Both the position numbers and the translations under genes were made by a program. Below, in pieces: positions 2,532 to 46,240 of a stretch of DNA of 64,000 bases; within the stretch, counting starts at the first letter, position 1; every line of letters starts with the position of its first letter. Below the pieces are notes generated by a model, which searched no databases, was not told where the DNA came from, and saw only the letters and a list, made by a program, of their open reading frames with translations. Origin of the DNA: Erysipelotrichaceae bacterium (GTDB lineage Bacteria > Bacillota_I > Bacilli_A > Erysipelotrichales > Erysipelotrichaceae); NCBI GenBank assembly GCA_017404205.1, contig JAFRCV010000013.1, positions 1-64,000 of the forward strand, read 5' to 3'.

Positions 2532-2566
2532 AATTTAATTTTAACATTTTGTTATATAATGGTTGA
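2532..2566. promoter_or_regulatory. Divergent leaderless promoters, rsmF (-) and tsaE (+)
   Basis: All of the 35 bp between the divergent starts is promoter. Plus strand: TATAAT at 2555-2560, then 6 nt, then the GTG of tsaE. Minus strand: TGTTAAAAT (complement of 2538-2546), then 6 nt, then the ATG of rsmF. With a normal start about 7 nt after the -10 box, both mRNAs would begin at or next to their start codons. Confidence 0.7.
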
Positions 2567-20149: not shown

Positions 20150-20318
20150 GAGTAATTTAATTATAGAGAGTCCTAATTGGTGGAAATGGACAGGATATTA
20201 TTCAAGATATCACTTATGAGCTTCTTATTTGATATGTAAAATAAGACGTAACTCGCGTTAAGAGTAGAAGATATAAGTAAGGTGGTACCGCGCAATAGCG
20301 CCCTTGGGCTACCTTTTT
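20150..20318 (+). promoter_or_regulatory. T-box riboswitch, isoleucine-specific
   Basis: The T-box core AAGGTGGTACCGCG lies at about 20279-20292 and would pair with the uncharged tRNA acceptor end. The specifier is ATC (Ile) at 20209-20211 in the context GATATCAC. The downstream half contains CGCGCAATAGCGC and GGGCTACCTTTTTT, which pairs with AAGGTGG to form the terminator. Uncharged tRNA-Ile should favour the antiterminator and raise ileS expression. The 5' limit is approximate. Confidence 0.92.
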
Positions 20319-24116: not shown

Positions 24117-24147
24117 TTGACAAACTCCGTCGGGGGGGGGGTAATAT
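24117..24147 (+). promoter_or_regulatory. Candidate phase-variable promoter with G10 spacer
   Basis: A consensus -35 TTGACA (24117-24122) and a -10-like TAATAT (24142-24147) are separated by 19 bp that include ten consecutive G (24132-24141). With 8 G the spacer would be the optimal 17 bp. A start near 24154 leaves a short leader carrying GGAGG (24160-24164) before the ATG. A ten-G run is unexpected in DNA this A/T-rich. Confidence 0.55.
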
Positions 24148-24171: not shown

Positions 24172-25131
24172 ATGGGCGATAATGGTATAAGAGAAAAAGT
24201 TGAAAACATTTTTGATACTATCGAAGAAAAAGCAAGAGACGCAGCTAAGTTGGTAGCTGATAAAACATTAGAAATAGCAGATGAGAATAAAGATGGAAAA
24301 ATTAATCTTATAGATTTCTTAATTAAAGCACTAAAAACAAAACCAATCAAAGTTGAAAGAGCTGAGTATTTAAGAAAGTCTTTTAAGAAATATTATGATG
24401 AAAGAACTATAGAAAAAGCTATAGAGACAACTCCAGCAAAGGCAAATATCAGTAAAGAAATTGTTGAAAGAATAGCACAAAACGCTATAGCACTAGAAAA
24501 AACTGTTGTTACGGTTTCATCTATTGGGCTTGGATATACACCAGGTGGTTTAGGAATTGATGCTGCAACTACGGTTGCAGATCTTGCCCAATATTATGGG
24601 CACATTTTAGTGGTAATGCAAAAGCTAATGTATTTATATGGCTATCCAGAATTAGAATTAGAGTCAGAAAACGGCAATATAGACGATGAAACTATGAATT
24701 TGATTATTATGGGTGTTGGAACTATGGCAGGAGTAAAAGAAGCCGCCAAGTTTATAAACATCATTGCTGAAAAATTAGCAATTAATGTGCCAAAACAGAT
24801 TCTTAAAAAAGGTTTCAGCACAAAAGTGGCATTCAAGGTAGTTAAAAAAGTATTAAATTATGTCGGCATTAAATTAACAAAAGATGTTGCTACAAAAGGT
24901 ATTGCCAATGCAATCAAATTTGTTGGTGGTGTTGCGATGGGAGGAATGACTTTTGCTGCTTTTAGCTCATCATGTGATAATTTTCATAAAGCTATAAAGG
25001 ATACACCATTGAGTGACTCAAATTATATCGCTAATTCAAATGCAATAGATGTCGATTTCAAAATAATAGAAGATGAATTAGAAAAAGAATTTGCTGATTT
25101 AAAAGATGAAGATATAGAAGAGAATGAATAA
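24172..25131 (+). CDS. EcsC-like protein with an EF-hand-type loop
   Basis: 319 aa. The N-terminal third is charged and helical and includes a calcium-loop match DENKDGKINLID (about 44-55; D1-N3-D5-G6-I8-D12 as in EF-hand/dockerin loops). The centre, GYTPGGLGIDAATTVADLAQYYGHI...YGYPEL, and the C-terminal part with alternating basic helices and a Gly-rich hydrophobic segment (FVGGVAMGGMTFAAF) resemble EcsC-family proteins. The end is acidic. The function of the family is unknown; the match is by eye. It is expressed from the G10 promoter and closed by its own terminator, so it is an isolated unit. Confidence 0.6.
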   Translation: MGDNGIREKVENIFDTIEEKARDAAKLVADKTLEIADENKDGKINLIDFLIKALKTKPIKVERAEYLRKSFKKYYDERTIEKAIETTPAKANISKEIVERIAQNAIALEKTVVTVSSIGLGYTPGGLGIDAATTVADLAQYYGHILVVMQKLMYLYGYPELELESENGNIDDETMNLIIMGVGTMAGVKEAAKFINIIAEKLAINVPKQILKKGFSTKVAFKVVKKVLNYVGIKLTKDVATKGIANAIKFVGGVAMGGMTFAAFSSSCDNFHKAIKDTPLSDSNYIANSNAIDVDFKIIEDELEKEFADLKDEDIEENE

Positions 25132-30207: not shown

Positions 30208-30214
30208 CCTCACA

Positions 30215-30265
30215 ATTATACAACAATATTTTCTTTATGTGGGCAAAACGACTTTGCGTTATAAT
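30215..30265. promoter_or_regulatory. Divergent leaderless promoters, nfu (-) and S1-pgi (+)
   Basis: Minus-strand TATAAT (complement of 30215-30220) lies 7 nt before the nfu ATG. Plus-strand TATAAT (30260-30265) lies 6 nt before the ATG at 30272. No Shine-Dalgarno precedes either start. Confidence 0.65.
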
Positions 30266-30271
30266 TGTCTT

Positions 30272-31930
30272 ATGAGCGTTATAAATGATTATAAAGTTGG
30301 TATGACTGTATATGGAAAAATATCTGGCATAAAGCCTTATGGAGCTTTTGTGTCTTTTGAAGATGGTGTCAATGGTTTAATTCATATATCAGAGATTTCA
30401 AACGGCTTTGTTAGAAATATTTCTAATTATGTACAAATAGGCGACTATTGTATGCTTAAAGTCATCGATGTTGATACACAAACTAAACAACTTCGTCTAT
30501 CTTTTAAAGCTCTTGAACAAAATACCAGAAAATATCAAAAGCGTGTTAAATTTGAAGGCATGCCAGACAATGTTAAAGGTTTTGGCTCAATAAGTGATAA
30601 ACTTGACGATTGGATTAAAGACTTCAATAAAAATGAAAAAAAGAATGGAGAGAATATGTTAAAACTTGATTTAAATTATGCAAAACTTGATAAAGATATT
30701 TTTTCTTATCAAGAAAAAGTTAACGAAGCACATAAGTGGTTACACGAAAAAAGTGGTAAAGGAAGCGATTATGTAGGTTGGGTAGAATGGCCAAATAATT
30801 ATGACAAAGAAGAATTTGATCGTATATTATCACTTAGTGAAAAATTAAAAGGAAAATATGATGTTTTATTAGTTTGTGGAATTGGTGGATCATATTTAGG
30901 AGCTAGAGCAGCATTAGAAATGATTAGAGGCTTATATCCTGAAAAGGGACCAGAAGTTATTTTTGTTGGCAACACATTCTCAAATACTTATATTTCACAA
31001 GTATTAAAACATATTGAAGGAAAAGATGTTGTATTAAATGTCATTTCTAAATCTGGAACAACAACGGAAACAGCTTTAGCATTTAGAATCTTTAAACAAT
31101 ATATTGAAAAACGTTATGGAAAAGAAGAAGCCAGAGAAAGAATAATTGCAACTACTGATAAAAATAAAGGCACATTAAAAGCTTTAGCTGATAAAGAAGG
31201 CTATGAAGAATTTGTTGTTCCTGATGATATTGGCGGAAGATATTCAGTATTTACGGCTGTTGGTTTATTGCCTTTAGCTTTAGCTGGCGTTGATATTAAA
31301 GAATTGATGGAAGGCTCAAAATTAGCCTACAATGATTTAGCTACTAGTAAACTTGAAGATAATGCAGCTTATCGCTATGCTGTAGCAAGAAGAATATTAA
31401 ATGATCAAGGATATAAGAGTGAGATGTTTGTTTCATATCATTTACAACTAACAATGGTTGGCGAATGGTGGAAACAATTATTTGGTGAATCAGAAGGCAA
31501 AGATGGAAATGGATTACTACCTACTTCCGTTTGTTATTCAACTGATTTACATTCACTTGGACAATTTGTTCAAGATGGTAATAAATGTTTATATGAAACA
31601 TTATTCTTAATTGACAATATGCCAGAAGATATCATCTTCCCTAATGATGACGAAAACTTAGATGGTATGAATTATCTAAGTGGTAAAAATGTTTCTTGGG
31701 TAAATAAGATGGCGCAAGAAGGAACGCTTAGTGCACACAGTGAAGAAGGTGGTGTTCCAAATATCATTATTAATTTAAAAGACAATAGCGCAAAGGCTTT
31801 TGGCTATATGATTTATTTCTTCTTTAAGGCTTGCGGAATGACTTGCTATTTATTAGACATCAATCCATTCAATCAACCTGGCGTTGAGGTATATAAAAAG
31901 AAGATGTTTAAATTATTAGGTAAAGAATAA
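30272..31930 (+). CDS. pgi: S1 RNA-binding domain fused to glucose-6-phosphate isomerase
   Basis: One uninterrupted 552-aa frame holding two normally separate proteins. Residues 1-128 match the GSP13/YugI (CvfD) type: one S1 domain (KVGMTVYGKISGIKPYGAFV...GLIHISEIS, about 7-75) and a basic tail. Residues 129-552 form a full isomerase (fructose-6-P/glucose-6-P): CGIGGSYLGARAALE, VISKSGTTTE, DIGGRYSVFTAVGLLPL. The first ATG lies 6 nt after TATAAT. An in-frame ATG at 30656 with GGAG 5 nt upstream could also make free isomerase. No stop codon separates the two parts. yugI and pgi are near neighbours in Bacillus. Confidence 0.9.
   Translation: MSVINDYKVGMTVYGKISGIKPYGAFVSFEDGVNGLIHISEISNGFVRNISNYVQIGDYCMLKVIDVDTQTKQLRLSFKALEQNTRKYQKRVKFEGMPDNVKGFGSISDKLDDWIKDFNKNEKKNGENMLKLDLNYAKLDKDIFSYQEKVNEAHKWLHEKSGKGSDYVGWVEWPNNYDKEEFDRILSLSEKLKGKYDVLLVCGIGGSYLGARAALEMIRGLYPEKGPEVIFVGNTFSNTYISQVLKHIEGKDVVLNVISKSGTTTETALAFRIFKQYIEKRYGKEEARERIIATTDKNKGTLKALADKEGYEEFVVPDDIGGRYSVFTAVGLLPLALAGVDIKELMEGSKLAYNDLATSKLEDNAAYRYAVARRILNDQGYKSEMFVSYHLQLTMVGEWWKQLFGESEGKDGNGLLPTSVCYSTDLHSLGQFVQDGNKCLYETLFLIDNMPEDIIFPNDDENLDGMNYLSGKNVSWVNKMAQEGTLSAHSEEGGVPNIIINLKDNSAKAFGYMIYFFFKACGMTCYLLDINPFNQPGVEVYKKKMFKLLGKE
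30647..30658 (+). promoter_or_regulatory. Internal ribosome site and ATG for stand-alone isomerase
   Basis: GGAGAG at 30647-30652 precedes ATG at 30656-30658, in frame with the upstream S1 domain (128 codons). The encoded protein from here starts MLKLDLNYAKL, corresponding to the usual PGI N-terminus. Confidence 0.65.
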
Positions 31931-42393: not shown

Positions 42394-44028
42394 ATGGACA
42401 ATAAAAAAATTAAACAGTCAGTTATTGTGGCAGCATTAACCTCAACTTTTGGTATTTTTATATCAAAAGCTTTGGGTCTTTTATATTATGCACCACTAAG
42501 TGCTTTAGCCGGTGAAAGCAATATGGCTTTCTATTCAATAACTTATACTTATTATGACATCTTATTAAAGATATCTAGTGCAGGCATACCTTTTGCGATT
42601 GCTGCATTAGTTGCAAGATATTACATCAAAGAGGACTATAAGACAGTACTACTTGTAAGGAAACTTGGCGTATCGATGATAATGGGCCTAAGTTTTATAG
42701 TTGCTCTTATCTTTTTAATTATTTCAAAACCATTAGCCGCTCAATCGATGGGCGCTAGTGCAAGTTTAGAAGATATTAAACATCTACAAGTTTTATTTCT
42801 TATTTTAGTAATAGCTGTAATTCTTGTGCCTTTTTTAAGTGCCATCAGAGGTTATTATCAAGGCTTAAAGAGACTTGATTTATATGGATCAAGCCAAGCT
42901 TTAGAACAATTCGTAAGAGTTTTTTCGATTATTCTTTTAGCTTTCTTGCTTGTAAGAGTCTTTCGTTTTGAAACAATATATGCAATATATGGTGCTGTGG
43001 CTGCTGCTGGTATTGCGGCACTTGTCACGATTATTTTCTTTATCTTTATGACTAAAGAAGATAACAAACGAATCAATGAACTTGTAGAAAAACAAGAAAA
43101 TGCTGCTGTTTCTAAAAAGTTAATCATTAAAGAAATACTTTCTTTAGGTCTTCCTTATTTATTAATATCTTTTTTAGGAAGTATCAGTCCACTAATTAAT
43201 ACTACTTTCTTTTTAGATACGGTCACAAAAGCGGGAGTTGATATAGAATTTGCGAAATTATCAATGGGCATCTTGCAAGCTAATTGCAATAAATTAGGAG
43301 CTATTCCCCAAGTTTTGACTATTGGCTTTTCCGCAAGTCTTGTACCTTATCTTGTTGAAACTCTAGAACAACAAGATTATAAAAAATTAAGTAAACAAAT
43401 TGTACAAATTTTAGATACCGTCTTATATATATTGATACCTGTAATTGTGATATTTATATTCTTTGCTAGAGATATCTATTTTATAATGTATGGCAATTCA
43501 AATTTAGATTTAGGAACTAGATTATTTAGAATGTCTAATTTTGTGACATTTACAGATACTGTAGCACCTATTTTATCAAGCATCATGATTACACTAAAGC
43601 TTAGAAAGGAAGCTGCATTCACATTAATTACTTCAATCATAATTAAGTTTATAAGCTTCTTCTTCTTTGTGAGAAACTTTGGCGCTGAGGGCATGGTTTA
43701 TTCGACAGCTTTAAGTAGTCTGTCAGTTATTGCTTTTTATTTATTAATTCTAAAAAAGAAATTTGGTATTCGTTTTGTTAAGACATTAAAGAGAAGTTTA
43801 TTTATTTTAGGTAGTTCATTAGTGGTAGTTGCGCCAATTGCTGCAATTGCTTATTTAATCCCATTTGATTATACTTCAAGAATTCTTGACATCTTAAAGA
43901 TGGGCGTTATTGGCGTTATCATTGTAATCTTATATTATTTAGTAAGTGCTAAACTGAGCCTTCCACAAAAAATCTTTGGCATTGATAAACTTACACCAAA
44001 GACTTTATTATCAAAATTCAGAGCTTGA
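42394..44028 (+). CDS. murJ: MOP-family lipid-linked precursor flippase (YtgP/MurJ type)
   Basis: 544-aa membrane protein with about 14 helices. The N-terminal block SVIVAALTSTFGIFISKALGLLYYAPLSALAG, the intervening IRGYYQGLKRLDLYGSSQALEQFVRV and the C-terminal half match the SpoVB/YtgP branch of the MOP exporters. YtgP flips lipid II in Bacillus. murC 5 kb upstream supports a peptidoglycan role, but a capsule/teichoic precursor flippase cannot be excluded. Confidence 0.82.
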   Translation: MDNKKIKQSVIVAALTSTFGIFISKALGLLYYAPLSALAGESNMAFYSITYTYYDILLKISSAGIPFAIAALVARYYIKEDYKTVLLVRKLGVSMIMGLSFIVALIFLIISKPLAAQSMGASASLEDIKHLQVLFLILVIAVILVPFLSAIRGYYQGLKRLDLYGSSQALEQFVRVFSIILLAFLLVRVFRFETIYAIYGAVAAAGIAALVTIIFFIFMTKEDNKRINELVEKQENAAVSKKLIIKEILSLGLPYLLISFLGSISPLINTTFFLDTVTKAGVDIEFAKLSMGILQANCNKLGAIPQVLTIGFSASLVPYLVETLEQQDYKKLSKQIVQILDTVLYILIPVIVIFIFFARDIYFIMYGNSNLDLGTRLFRMSNFVTFTDTVAPILSSIMITLKLRKEAAFTLITSIIIKFISFFFFVRNFGAEGMVYSTALSSLSVIAFYLLILKKKFGIRFVKTLKRSLFILGSSLVVVAPIAAIAYLIPFDYTSRILDILKMGVIGVIIVILYYLVSAKLSLPQKIFGIDKLTPKTLLSKFRA

Positions 44029-44877
44029 TTTTAAATAATCAATCACCTCATCAATTAATATTGGCGGTGTACTTGCACCAGCGCTTATATAGATCTTATT
44101 CATACCGATAAGGTCTTTTTTATTTATGTCATCTTTTGATGAGATCAAGAAAACTTTTTTAAAGTTGTTTTTGCCTATTGCGACAAGCTTATTTGTATTG
44201 TTGGATTTTGCATCACCAACAACATATAAAACATCACCATCTTTAATATCCATTATGGCTTTTTGCCTAGCTGATGTAGCGTTGCATATTTCTTCTTGAA
44301 TAATACAATTTTGATATTTGTTTTTTAAATAGCCAAATATTTCTTTTAATTCAATAAAAGACATTGTTGTTTGATTTGTCACAAATATCTTATCATTATC
44401 TATTTTTAATTCATCGATATCTTCTTTACTGCTTATTAAATGTATTTTATTGGAAATAGAAATAACAGCTTCAGCTTCAGGGTGTTTTCTTTTTCCAAAA
44501 TAAATGACATCATAATCATTATTTAAATATTCTTTAATTATTTCTTTTGTTTTTAAAACATCTACACAAGTGGCATCTATGGTAATTAAGCCTTTTTGCT
44601 TGGCTATATTTTTTATCTTGTCATCTATACCATGTGCTGTAAAAATAACTACACCATCATCAATTGTTTCCAAAAGTTCTTGTTTGCTTAATTTTGAATC
44701 ATCCAAGCTAACTATTCCCATTTTACTTAATTCATCAGTTACAAATTGATTGTGAACAATCATACCTAAAATATAGATATTTTCTTCTGGATAATCTTTT
44801 TTAGCTTTTTTTACGATGTTAATGGCGTTTACTACACCTTTACAATATCCACTTGGTATTACTCTTTTGATTTCCAT
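44011..44877 (-). CDS. ispH: 4-hydroxy-3-methylbut-2-enyl diphosphate reductase
   Basis: 288-aa [4Fe-4S] enzyme, last step of the MEP isoprenoid pathway (HMBPP to IPP/DMAPP). The three cluster cysteines are in PSGYCKGV, DATC and EICNATSARQ. HNQFV and AHG give the conserved His; HPEAEA gives the catalytic Glu; SAGASTPP is the C-terminal phosphate-binding block. Its 3' end overlaps murJ by 18 nt, tail to tail. Its ATG lies 6 nt after TGTTAAAAT (leaderless). Confidence 0.94.
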   Translation of the reverse strand: MEIKRVIPSGYCKGVVNAINIVKKAKKDYPEENIYILGMIVHNQFVTDELSKMGIVSLDDSKLSKQELLETIDDGVVIFTAHGIDDKIKNIAKQKGLITIDATCVDVLKTKEIIKEYLNNDYDVIYFGKRKHPEAEAVISISNKIHLISSKEDIDELKIDNDKIFVTNQTTMSFIELKEIFGYLKNKYQNCIIQEEICNATSARQKAIMDIKDGDVLYVVGDAKSNNTNKLVAIGKNNFKKVFLISSKDDINKKDLIGMNKIYISAGASTPPILIDEVIDYLKSSSEF

Positions 44878-44883
44878 ATTCCA

Positions 44884-44901
44884 ATTTTAACATGTTATAA
44901 T
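44884..44901. promoter_or_regulatory. Abutting divergent extended -10 boxes, ispH (-) and cshB-like (+)
   Basis: ATTTTAACATGTTATAAT reads as TGTTAAAAT on minus (44884-44892) and TGTTATAAT on plus (44893-44901), placed back to back with no gap. Each is followed by 6 or 7 nt and then its start codon, so one 18-bp near-palindrome appears to fire two leaderless mRNAs. Confidence 0.65.
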
Positions 44902-44908
44902 TTTTTCG

Positions 44909-46240
44909 ATGAAAAAGACAACAGAAAAATTTTTAGAGTTAAATGGTTTTAAGGAATTAAGCAAGGTTCAAAAAAGTGTAAAAGAATACACTGATAATAA
45001 AAAAGACCTTATTGCGATTTCTAAAACAGGAACTGGTAAGACACATGCTTATTTGATTCCCATTGCGGAAATGATTAATCCTAAGTCAAATAAGACACAA
45101 GTTTTAATATCTTTGCCTACTAGAGAACTTGCCTATCAAGTATATTTGAATGCTAAAGTATTATGCGATGTATTTGAAGATTTGCGTATATCTTTATTAG
45201 CTGGAGGAAGTGATCGTAAAAGAAGTAAAGATAAACTAGAAAATAATACACCTCATATCATAATTGGAACACCTGGCAGAATTAAAGACATTTTTGAAAG
45301 TAATTTAATAAGGGTTGATTTTGTACAAATGTTTGTCATTGATGAAGCTGATATGACCTTAGAATATGGCTTTTTAGAAGATATCGATTCAGTATTTTCA
45401 CATATGGTTAAAAACCCTGAAGTGTTATGTTTTAGTGCAACTTTTCCAAAAGAGCTTCAGATTTTTACTAAGAAATATTTAAATAATCCAAAGCTTATAC
45501 AAGTTGAAGACAAAAAAAGAGATCCAAAAATTGATCATATTTTAGTTCCTTGTAAACACAAAGATTATAAAGACAAATTATTAGATTTATTGCCTTTGAT
45601 AAATCCTTATATTTGTTTGATATTTGCGAATTCAAAAGATGAAGCAGATAAAACATATGAATTATTAAGAGAAAAGAATTATCGTGTATTATTACTTCAT
45701 GGTGGTCTTGAATCAAGAGATAGACAAAAAGCTATTAAAGCATTAAATAATAAAGAATATACCTATGTTGTCGCTAGCGATGTGGCCAGCAGAGGAATAG
45801 ATATTGATGGTATAAGCCATGTTATTTCACTTGGCTTTCCACGCAAACTTGAATTTTATATTCATAGAGCTGGTAGAACTGGTCGCAATACCAAAGATGG
45901 AACGGTATATGCTTTATACAAAGATGAAGATATTAATGCTATTAAAAGTCTTGAAAGCAAGGGCATTAAATTTAACGCTCAAGATATAAAGAATGATGAA
46001 TTTAAAAATGTTAAATCGCCTACTTATAAAAGACCAAGAAAAAATGATGAAGTAGAAAAAGAAATTGCTAAGACTTTAAGAAGAAAAAATGAAAAGGTAA
46101 AACCTAATTATAAAAAGAAGAAAAAGGAAGCAATAGAGAAGATTAAACGTAAACAAAGAAGAGAATATATTAGAAATAAAATCAAAGAAGAAAGAAAAGA
46201 AAGATATCGTTTACAAGCAAGAAAGAACAATGAAGAATAA
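44909..46240 (+). CDS. DEAD-box RNA helicase (CshB/YqfR-like)
   Basis: 443 aa. Q-motif region FKELSKVQKSV, motif I SKTGTGKTHAY, Ib GTPGRI, II VIDEADM, III CFSATF, then the second RecA lobe with SRGIDIDGISHVI and HRAGRTGRN. A very basic tail of about 85 residues (KKKKKEAIEKIKRKQRRE...) should bind RNA. In B. subtilis cshB (yqfR) is close to ispH (yqfP), which supports CshB. Leaderless by position. It ends in a terminator hairpin. Confidence 0.87.
   Translation: MKKTTEKFLELNGFKELSKVQKSVKEYTDNKKDLIAISKTGTGKTHAYLIPIAEMINPKSNKTQVLISLPTRELAYQVYLNAKVLCDVFEDLRISLLAGGSDRKRSKDKLENNTPHIIIGTPGRIKDIFESNLIRVDFVQMFVIDEADMTLEYGFLEDIDSVFSHMVKNPEVLCFSATFPKELQIFTKKYLNNPKLIQVEDKKRDPKIDHILVPCKHKDYKDKLLDLLPLINPYICLIFANSKDEADKTYELLREKNYRVLLLHGGLESRDRQKAIKALNNKEYTYVVASDVASRGIDIDGISHVISLGFPRKLEFYIHRAGRTGRNTKDGTVYALYKDEDINAIKSLESKGIKFNAQDIKNDEFKNVKSPTYKRPRKNDEVEKEIAKTLRRKNEKVKPNYKKKKKEAIEKIKRKQRREYIRNKIKEERKERYRLQARKNNEE

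Follow-up and report, generated by a model that had tools for sequence, protein, structure and literature searches.

Abutting divergent extended -10 boxes between ispH and a DEAD-box helicase gene as a candidate bidirectional core promoter in Erysipelotrichaceae

Two extended -10 boxes pointing in opposite directions abut between ispH and a DEAD-box RNA helicase gene in the window, that is, the whole stretch of 64,000 nucleotides of Erysipelotrichaceae DNA that was analyzed. The best explanation of this site, and one that we consider likely to be correct from the sequence comparisons, is a minimal bidirectional core promoter serving two probably leaderless genes. The first-pass annotation had described a divergent promoter with both boxes in use. 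This reading is well supported: both boxes are conserved, as is their spacing to the start codons, and the element recurs at other divergent gene pairs.

The 18-bp element and its predicted transcription starts

The hexamer is directly preceded by TGn in both TGTTAAAAT and TGTTATAAT, which makes each of them an extended -10 box. The two extended boxes share no bases, and their hexamers are 6 bp apart. The reading of 44884-44901 as ATTTTAACATGTTATAAT, two such boxes back to back without a gap, was confirmed, as were the claimed 6-7 nt between box and gene start (6 nt for ispH, 7 nt for the helicase gene) and the 31-bp intergenic region (44878-44908). Little besides the boxes lies between the two ATGs. 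The exact 18-mer has one copy in the 1.62-Mb genome. The generalised zero-gap element ATTnTAnCATGnTAnAAT has a single occurrence in the window, whereas dinucleotide shuffles predict 0.01, and only 1 of 100 shuffles contained any copy. A looser palindrome test on the window gave one site against 0.27 expected, which was not significant, and an Rfam scan of the window returned rRNA only.

The gene identities given earlier hold on the family and structure matches listed in Table 1. The start codons look reliable, since the alignment of ispH with the solved IspH runs from residue 2 and position 44909 is the first ATG, GTG or TTG in the frame of the helicase. A Shine-Dalgarno (SD) motif was looked for upstream of both genes at this locus and was found at neither. 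Leaderless genes are recognized by a -10 box 6-8 nt before the start codon, and the 6 nt of ispH and the 7 nt of the helicase gene fall within this range. The optimal start distance is given as 7 nt after the last -10 base in the available part of PMC12825309. Starts 7 nt past each box, together with the missing SD at either gene, predict that both mRNAs are leaderless or nearly so. This is probably the main consequence of the arrangement; it had been overlooked in the first-pass annotation and is better supported and more informative than mutual exclusion.

Table 1. Features of the ispH/helicase locus and of two further divergent gene pairs, with positions in the window
Feature	Position	Strand	Basis or remark
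Zero-gap pair of divergent extended -10 boxes, ATTTTAACATGTTATAAT	44884..44901	.	Direct reading; shuffle expectation 0.01 per window; single copy in genome
Extended -10 box of ispH, TGTTAAAAT, 6 nt before ATG	44884..44892	-	TAnAAT kept at this distance in 29/29 genus loci
Extended -10 box of helicase gene, TGTTATAAT, 7 nt before ATG	44893..44901	+	6-8 nt in 27/29 genus loci
ispH, 288 aa, 4-hydroxy-3-methylbut-2-enyl diphosphate reductase	44011..44877	-	NCBIfam TIGR00216 and PDB IspH
DEAD-box RNA helicase, 443 aa	44909..46240	+	Pfam DEAD and Helicase_C
Predicted transcription start of ispH, A of ATG (leaderless)	44877	-	Predicted at 7 nt from last -10 base
Predicted transcription start of helicase gene, G 44908 (one-base leader) or A of ATG 44909	44908..44909	+	Predicted at 7-8 nt from last -10 base
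Divergent pair RsmF (-) / TsaE (+), 35-bp gap	2532..2566	.	Starts 2531/2567, both leaderless-like; hexamers about 10 bp apart
Divergent pair NifU-like (-) / S1-PGI (+), 64-bp gap	30208..30271	.	Starts 30207/30272; boxes about 40 bp apart

In the proposed mechanism, the housekeeping sigma factor would bind in either orientation through the extended -10 box (TGnTAnAAT) and would do so without a -35 element, because the -35 position falls at or inside the start of the opposite gene. The spacer of either promoter would include the -10 box of the other. If initiation occurs 7 nt past each box, transcription of ispH would start on the A of its own ATG, and that of the helicase gene either on its ATG or on the base just upstream; both mRNAs would then be translated as leaderless or nearly leaderless messages. 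We infer the use of both boxes, the exact start sites and the leaderless translation from the sequence. Judging from the footprint size of the polymerase, two polymerases could hardly be present at the site together.

Conservation of the boxes and of their distances within the genus

The helicase was searched for in 36 genomes of the genus, and 30 of them had loci, the other six containing only fragments or weak paralogue matches. Four loci were dropped before counting: L001 duplicated our own locus, L032 lay on a contig identical to that of L005, and L033 and L034 had no helicase gene beside ispH. L031 was left out for its unreadable ispH, and the counts refer to 29 loci in which both genes were readable.

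The 29 loci are related, and the following counts do not represent independent events. The genes ispH and the helicase gene were divergent in all of them, and the ATG-to-ATG distance was 24-41 bp in 25 of 29. The best -10 box of ispH was TAnAAT located exactly 6 nt from the ATG in 29/29 loci; the script took the best box within 4-10 nt, a procedure that favours finding a box but would not alone yield a constant distance. Upstream of ispH, the columns -12, -11, -9, -8 and -7 (T, A, A, A, T) were invariant, while -6 to -2 and -13 to -15 varied. The -10 box of the helicase gene was found 6-8 nt from its ATG in 27 of 29 loci, the remaining two showing 4 and 10 nt.

The TGn extension was present in 27/29 loci on the helicase side and in 9/29 on the ispH side. 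It accompanied a non-consensus ispH hexamer in 8 of 11 loci and TATAAT in 1 of 18 (p = 0.0003, uncorrected for kinship), as expected if the TG makes up for a weaker -10. Matches to the -35 consensus were near random, with a mean of 2.90 of 6 positions for ispH (29 loci) and 2.5 for the helicase gene (26 loci, excluding L026, L027 and L029) against 2.52 for random sequence.

These data bear on the possibility that the site is a genuine promoter in one direction only. The second box would then merely result from -10 symmetry and a high AT content, and its gene would be transcribed from elsewhere with a leader. The symmetry of the -10 alone yields many divergent starts in E. coli, according to the available part of PMC12825309, and the sampled 204 kb of the genome have a GC content of 31%. 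We nevertheless regard a single real direction as improbable, because in the 29 loci each box keeps its particular distance to the start codon of its gene. Moreover, the hexamers do not overlap at our own locus, so that neither can be a by-product of the other, and an SD, which one would expect in a message with a leader, is lacking at both genes.

The spacing between the two hexamers was not constant: 8 bp was found in 13 of the 29 loci and 6 bp, the type of our own locus, in three. It amounted to 3-15 bp in 24 loci and 33-80 bp in four, and the hexamers overlapped in one. Conservation across relatives, which the first-pass annotation had named as a way of checking its reading, thus extends to both boxes and to the distances from their own starts, and not to the distance between the boxes. 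The single overlapping case is L027 (G011), where the -10 hexamers in the ispH/helicase gap ATTATAAT have four bases in common and the helicase-side spacing is 10 nt. This overlap resembles the classical shared -10 form of bidirectional promoters.

Recurrence of the element and leaderless-type starts in the family

The zero-gap element ATTnTAnCATGnTAnAAT was identified once each in 12 of the 36 genus genomes, while the reversed pattern was found in none of the 36. Ten of the 12 copies were situated between two divergent starts 6-9 nt away. Three copies were located at ispH/helicase (our own genome, G025 and G034) and seven at an unrelated pair of genes encoding a DUF212 and an S1-domain protein, with 7-9 nt to either ATG. 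Of 30 NifU-region loci, seven showed DUF212 next to the S1 gene, and all seven carry the zero-gap element. In the copy of G031 the S1 side was kept and DUF212 was not found there, and the copy of G002 had a gene start on one side only, at 37 nt. Near base 1501 of L195 and L201, between the DUF212 and S1 genes, a perfect 18-bp palindrome ATTATAACATGTTATAAT was present, which consists of two full-consensus extended -10 boxes back to back.

The near-palindromic form of the site could also suggest the operator of a dimeric repressor, with the resemblance to -10 boxes being secondary. At our own locus TAACATGTTA is a perfect 10-bp palindrome placed where a repressor would block both genes, and two species have perfect 18-bp palindromes at their DUF212/S1 pair. 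Such an operator would be expected to conserve the distance between its half-sites, and it was rejected as a candidate with the inter-box distance running from -4 to 80 bp in the 29 loci. The orthologues keep the box-to-start distances and not the inter-box distance, a pattern that would break a dyad. In addition, each of the 12 genus genomes having any element has only one, at differing gene pairs, and the symmetry follows from two abutting TGnTAnAAT boxes. An operator therefore seems highly unlikely, and we give it hardly any credence.

A search of the family detected the zero-gap element in 26 of 195 genomes (7 of the genus and 19 others) and the reversed pattern in 1 of 195. Among the 19 non-genus copies examined, 15 were flanked on each side by a start no more than 66 nt away, in most cases with an SD leader. 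Four had one leaderless-like side and none had both sides leaderless-like; G118 has three zero-gap sites, one of which entered this examination. Taken by sequence pattern, the zero-gap element is a recurrent putative divergent promoter in the family, and its doubly leaderless form was observed in this genus only when compared with the 19 non-genus loci. A search allowing wider gaps found between 1 and 7 divergent extended -10 pairs in each genome, several of which look like one site repeated across species. As wider-gap divergent pairs are also common, the zero gap is not claimed to be a preferred spacing.

As a tentative proposal, abutting extended -10 boxes may constitute a distinct and recurrent class of bidirectional core promoter, in which the starts are about 31 bp apart and each -10 box is the spacer of the other. 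In this lineage it would allow the gap of a divergent gene pair to be as short as 31-35 bp with both messages leaderless. Within one genus the class may have originated at ispH/helicase and DUF212/S1 at the least, and in other genera of the family at further divergent pairs, there with leaders.

Counts of the pattern TGnTAnAAT-N6-ATG point to leaderless-type starts beyond these loci. The 36 genus genomes contained 858 occurrences with N6 versus 213 with N12, and N6 exceeded N12 in 36/36; in our own genome the numbers were 48 and 8. In the family outside the genus (134 genomes), 2987 occurrences with N6 were found versus 1402 with N12. N6 was the larger in 113 of 134 genomes and was not commoner than N12 in the other 21, some genera showing no excess. 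A 204-kb sample of our own genome was too small to reveal a leaderless excess, which the whole-genome pattern counts did reveal. In this sample the ATG excess at 6 nt from TGnTAnAAT was weak (5 cases versus 6 at 29 nt), and TATAAT alone gave no clear excess at 6 nt (10 cases versus 15 at 1 nt and 16 at 25 nt). The window had 3 motifs versus 0.9 expected. SD-like motifs peaked about 4-10 nt before the ATG in the 204-kb sample. On these patterns, the putative leaderless-type starts are a minority mode beside SD-led ones in our own genome.

Outside the genus, ispH and the helicase gene were divergent neighbours in 19 of 24 and 37 of 39 loci in the two sets examined. The distance between them was roughly 50-270 bp, and the gaps were mostly larger than in the genus. 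In 22 of these 63 loci the -10 box of ispH was at most 8 nt from the ATG (exactly 6 nt in 18 of the 22), and none of the 22 had an SD. In the 41 loci with the box more than 8 nt away, 33 had one. Short distance was associated with absence of an SD (Fisher p = 1e-10, uncorrected for kinship). That one and the same gene alternates between short/no-SD and long/SD forms is the strongest indication that the short class would be leaderless. Since the ispH start is of the leaderless type or SD-led depending on the genus, with the neighbour mostly unchanged, the evolution of leaderless translation could be studied on one gene.

The first-pass annotation had further proposed that the two genes may be expressed in mutually exclusive events, and in a regulatory switch the overlap would have been selected for this effect. 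The predicted starts lie only about 31 bp apart, so that the polymerase footprints would have to overlap, and the ATG-to-ATG spacing is tight in the genus, as described above. Against a switch stand the gap between the boxes, which ranges from -4 to 80 bp in the 29 genus loci, the wider ispH-to-helicase distances in other genera and the lack of an evident link between the functions of the two genes. According to the available part of PMC12825309, steric exclusion exists, but five bidirectional promoters of E. coli had too little basal transcription for polymerases to compete. Mutually exclusive expression as a function is thus unsupported, and we consider a switch very improbable. For the bidirectional core promoter preferred here, simultaneous occupancy of both orientations is probably excluded as an incidental result of its compactness.

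Comparison with known systems and other sites in the window

Prokaryotic bidirectional promoters were reportedly the subject of earlier work by Warman et al. in 2021. In the available portions of two later papers, they are defined by divergent starts 7-25 bp apart, most commonly 18 and also 10 and 23 bp, and by -10 elements that are either shared or overlap each other reciprocally (Middlemiss et al. 2023, PMC10268837; Warman et al. 2026, PMC12825309). The element resembles these promoters, as there described, in its short near-symmetric -10 region for divergent mRNAs, in admitting the polymerase in either orientation but not both, and in its position between divergent genes, where they often occur. 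It differs from them in a wider predicted start spacing, about 31 bp (from 44877 to 44908/44909) instead of 7-25 bp, and in that two complete extended -10 boxes abut without shared bases. Leaderless output on both sides is also absent from the available description of these promoters (PMC10268837, PMC12825309). The site at 44884-44901 therefore falls outside the strict definition of a bidirectional promoter, yet it would work like one. If the start sites are confirmed, the 7-25 bp window used for calling bidirectional promoters misses a wider-spaced class. Such sites offer a set of natural cases where about 31 bp would make up all of the regulatory region of a gene pair.

Known leaderless genes likewise lack an SD and have a TA-like -10 signal just a few bases upstream of the start codon, according to the available text on surveyed genomes (PMC3160421) and on Deinococcus-Thermus (PMC12340547). 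The accessible part of the survey by Zheng et al. (2011, PMC3160421) assigned the leaderless genes of Firmicutes chiefly to Lactobacillales and Mycoplasma, whereas the candidates described here belong to an Erysipelotrichaceae lineage and also occur as divergent pairs. Divergent genes with overlapping polymerase sites are known from EcoRV-type restriction-modification promoters (PMC5333194) and from lysG/lysE of M. tuberculosis (PMC5648196), and lysE has one leaderless start (PMC5648196). Unlike the ispH/helicase pair, the former have a dedicated regulator, the C protein, whose transcript is not leaderless (PMC5333194), and the latter has the dedicated regulator LysG and a 108-bp intergenic region (PMC5648196). 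A back-to-back extended -10 pair does not appear in the available portions of either description (PMC5333194, PMC5648196). Our searches of accessible open-licence text brought up no account of leaderless genes in Erysipelotrichaceae, nor of divergent pairs in which extended -10 boxes abut and both genes are leaderless.

The sites at 2538-2560 and 30215-30265 had been said to follow the same plan. Both divergent pairs exist and have wider box spacing (Table 1), and the plan is followed only in part. TsaE, the plus-strand gene at 2567, begins with GTG and its box lacks TGn, and the RsmF/TsaE neighbourhood was kept in only 4 of 30 genus loci. The NifU-like/S1-PGI pair is widely conserved, but in many relatives the leader on its NifU side is longer and includes an SD-like motif. 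Within 204 kb of our own sequence, the only compact divergent leaderless-like pairs were ispH/helicase, RsmF/TsaE and NifU-like/S1-PGI, all of them inside the window.

Some further observations were made in the window and at the corresponding loci of relatives. Upstream of rsmF in L138-L155, many genus members appear by eye to have TGnTAnACT, and not TAnAAT, 6 nt before the ATG, possibly a variant -10 of a leaderless gene. The single open frame at 30272-31930 (+) joins an S1 domain (residues 8-78) to a phosphoglucose isomerase (199-543). In relatives with an adjoining DUF212 and a complete S1 frame, the S1 protein ends at 121-124 aa and is separate from the isomerase. Before the 918-aa frame at 20304, GGTGGTACCGCG (about 20264-20304) resembles a T-box antiterminator; this region gave no Rfam match at the gathering score. 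A run of ten G at 24132-24141, in a genome of 31% GC, is followed after about 20 bases by an SD-like motif and the ATG at 24172; it may represent a tract prone to slippage or may stem from the assembly.
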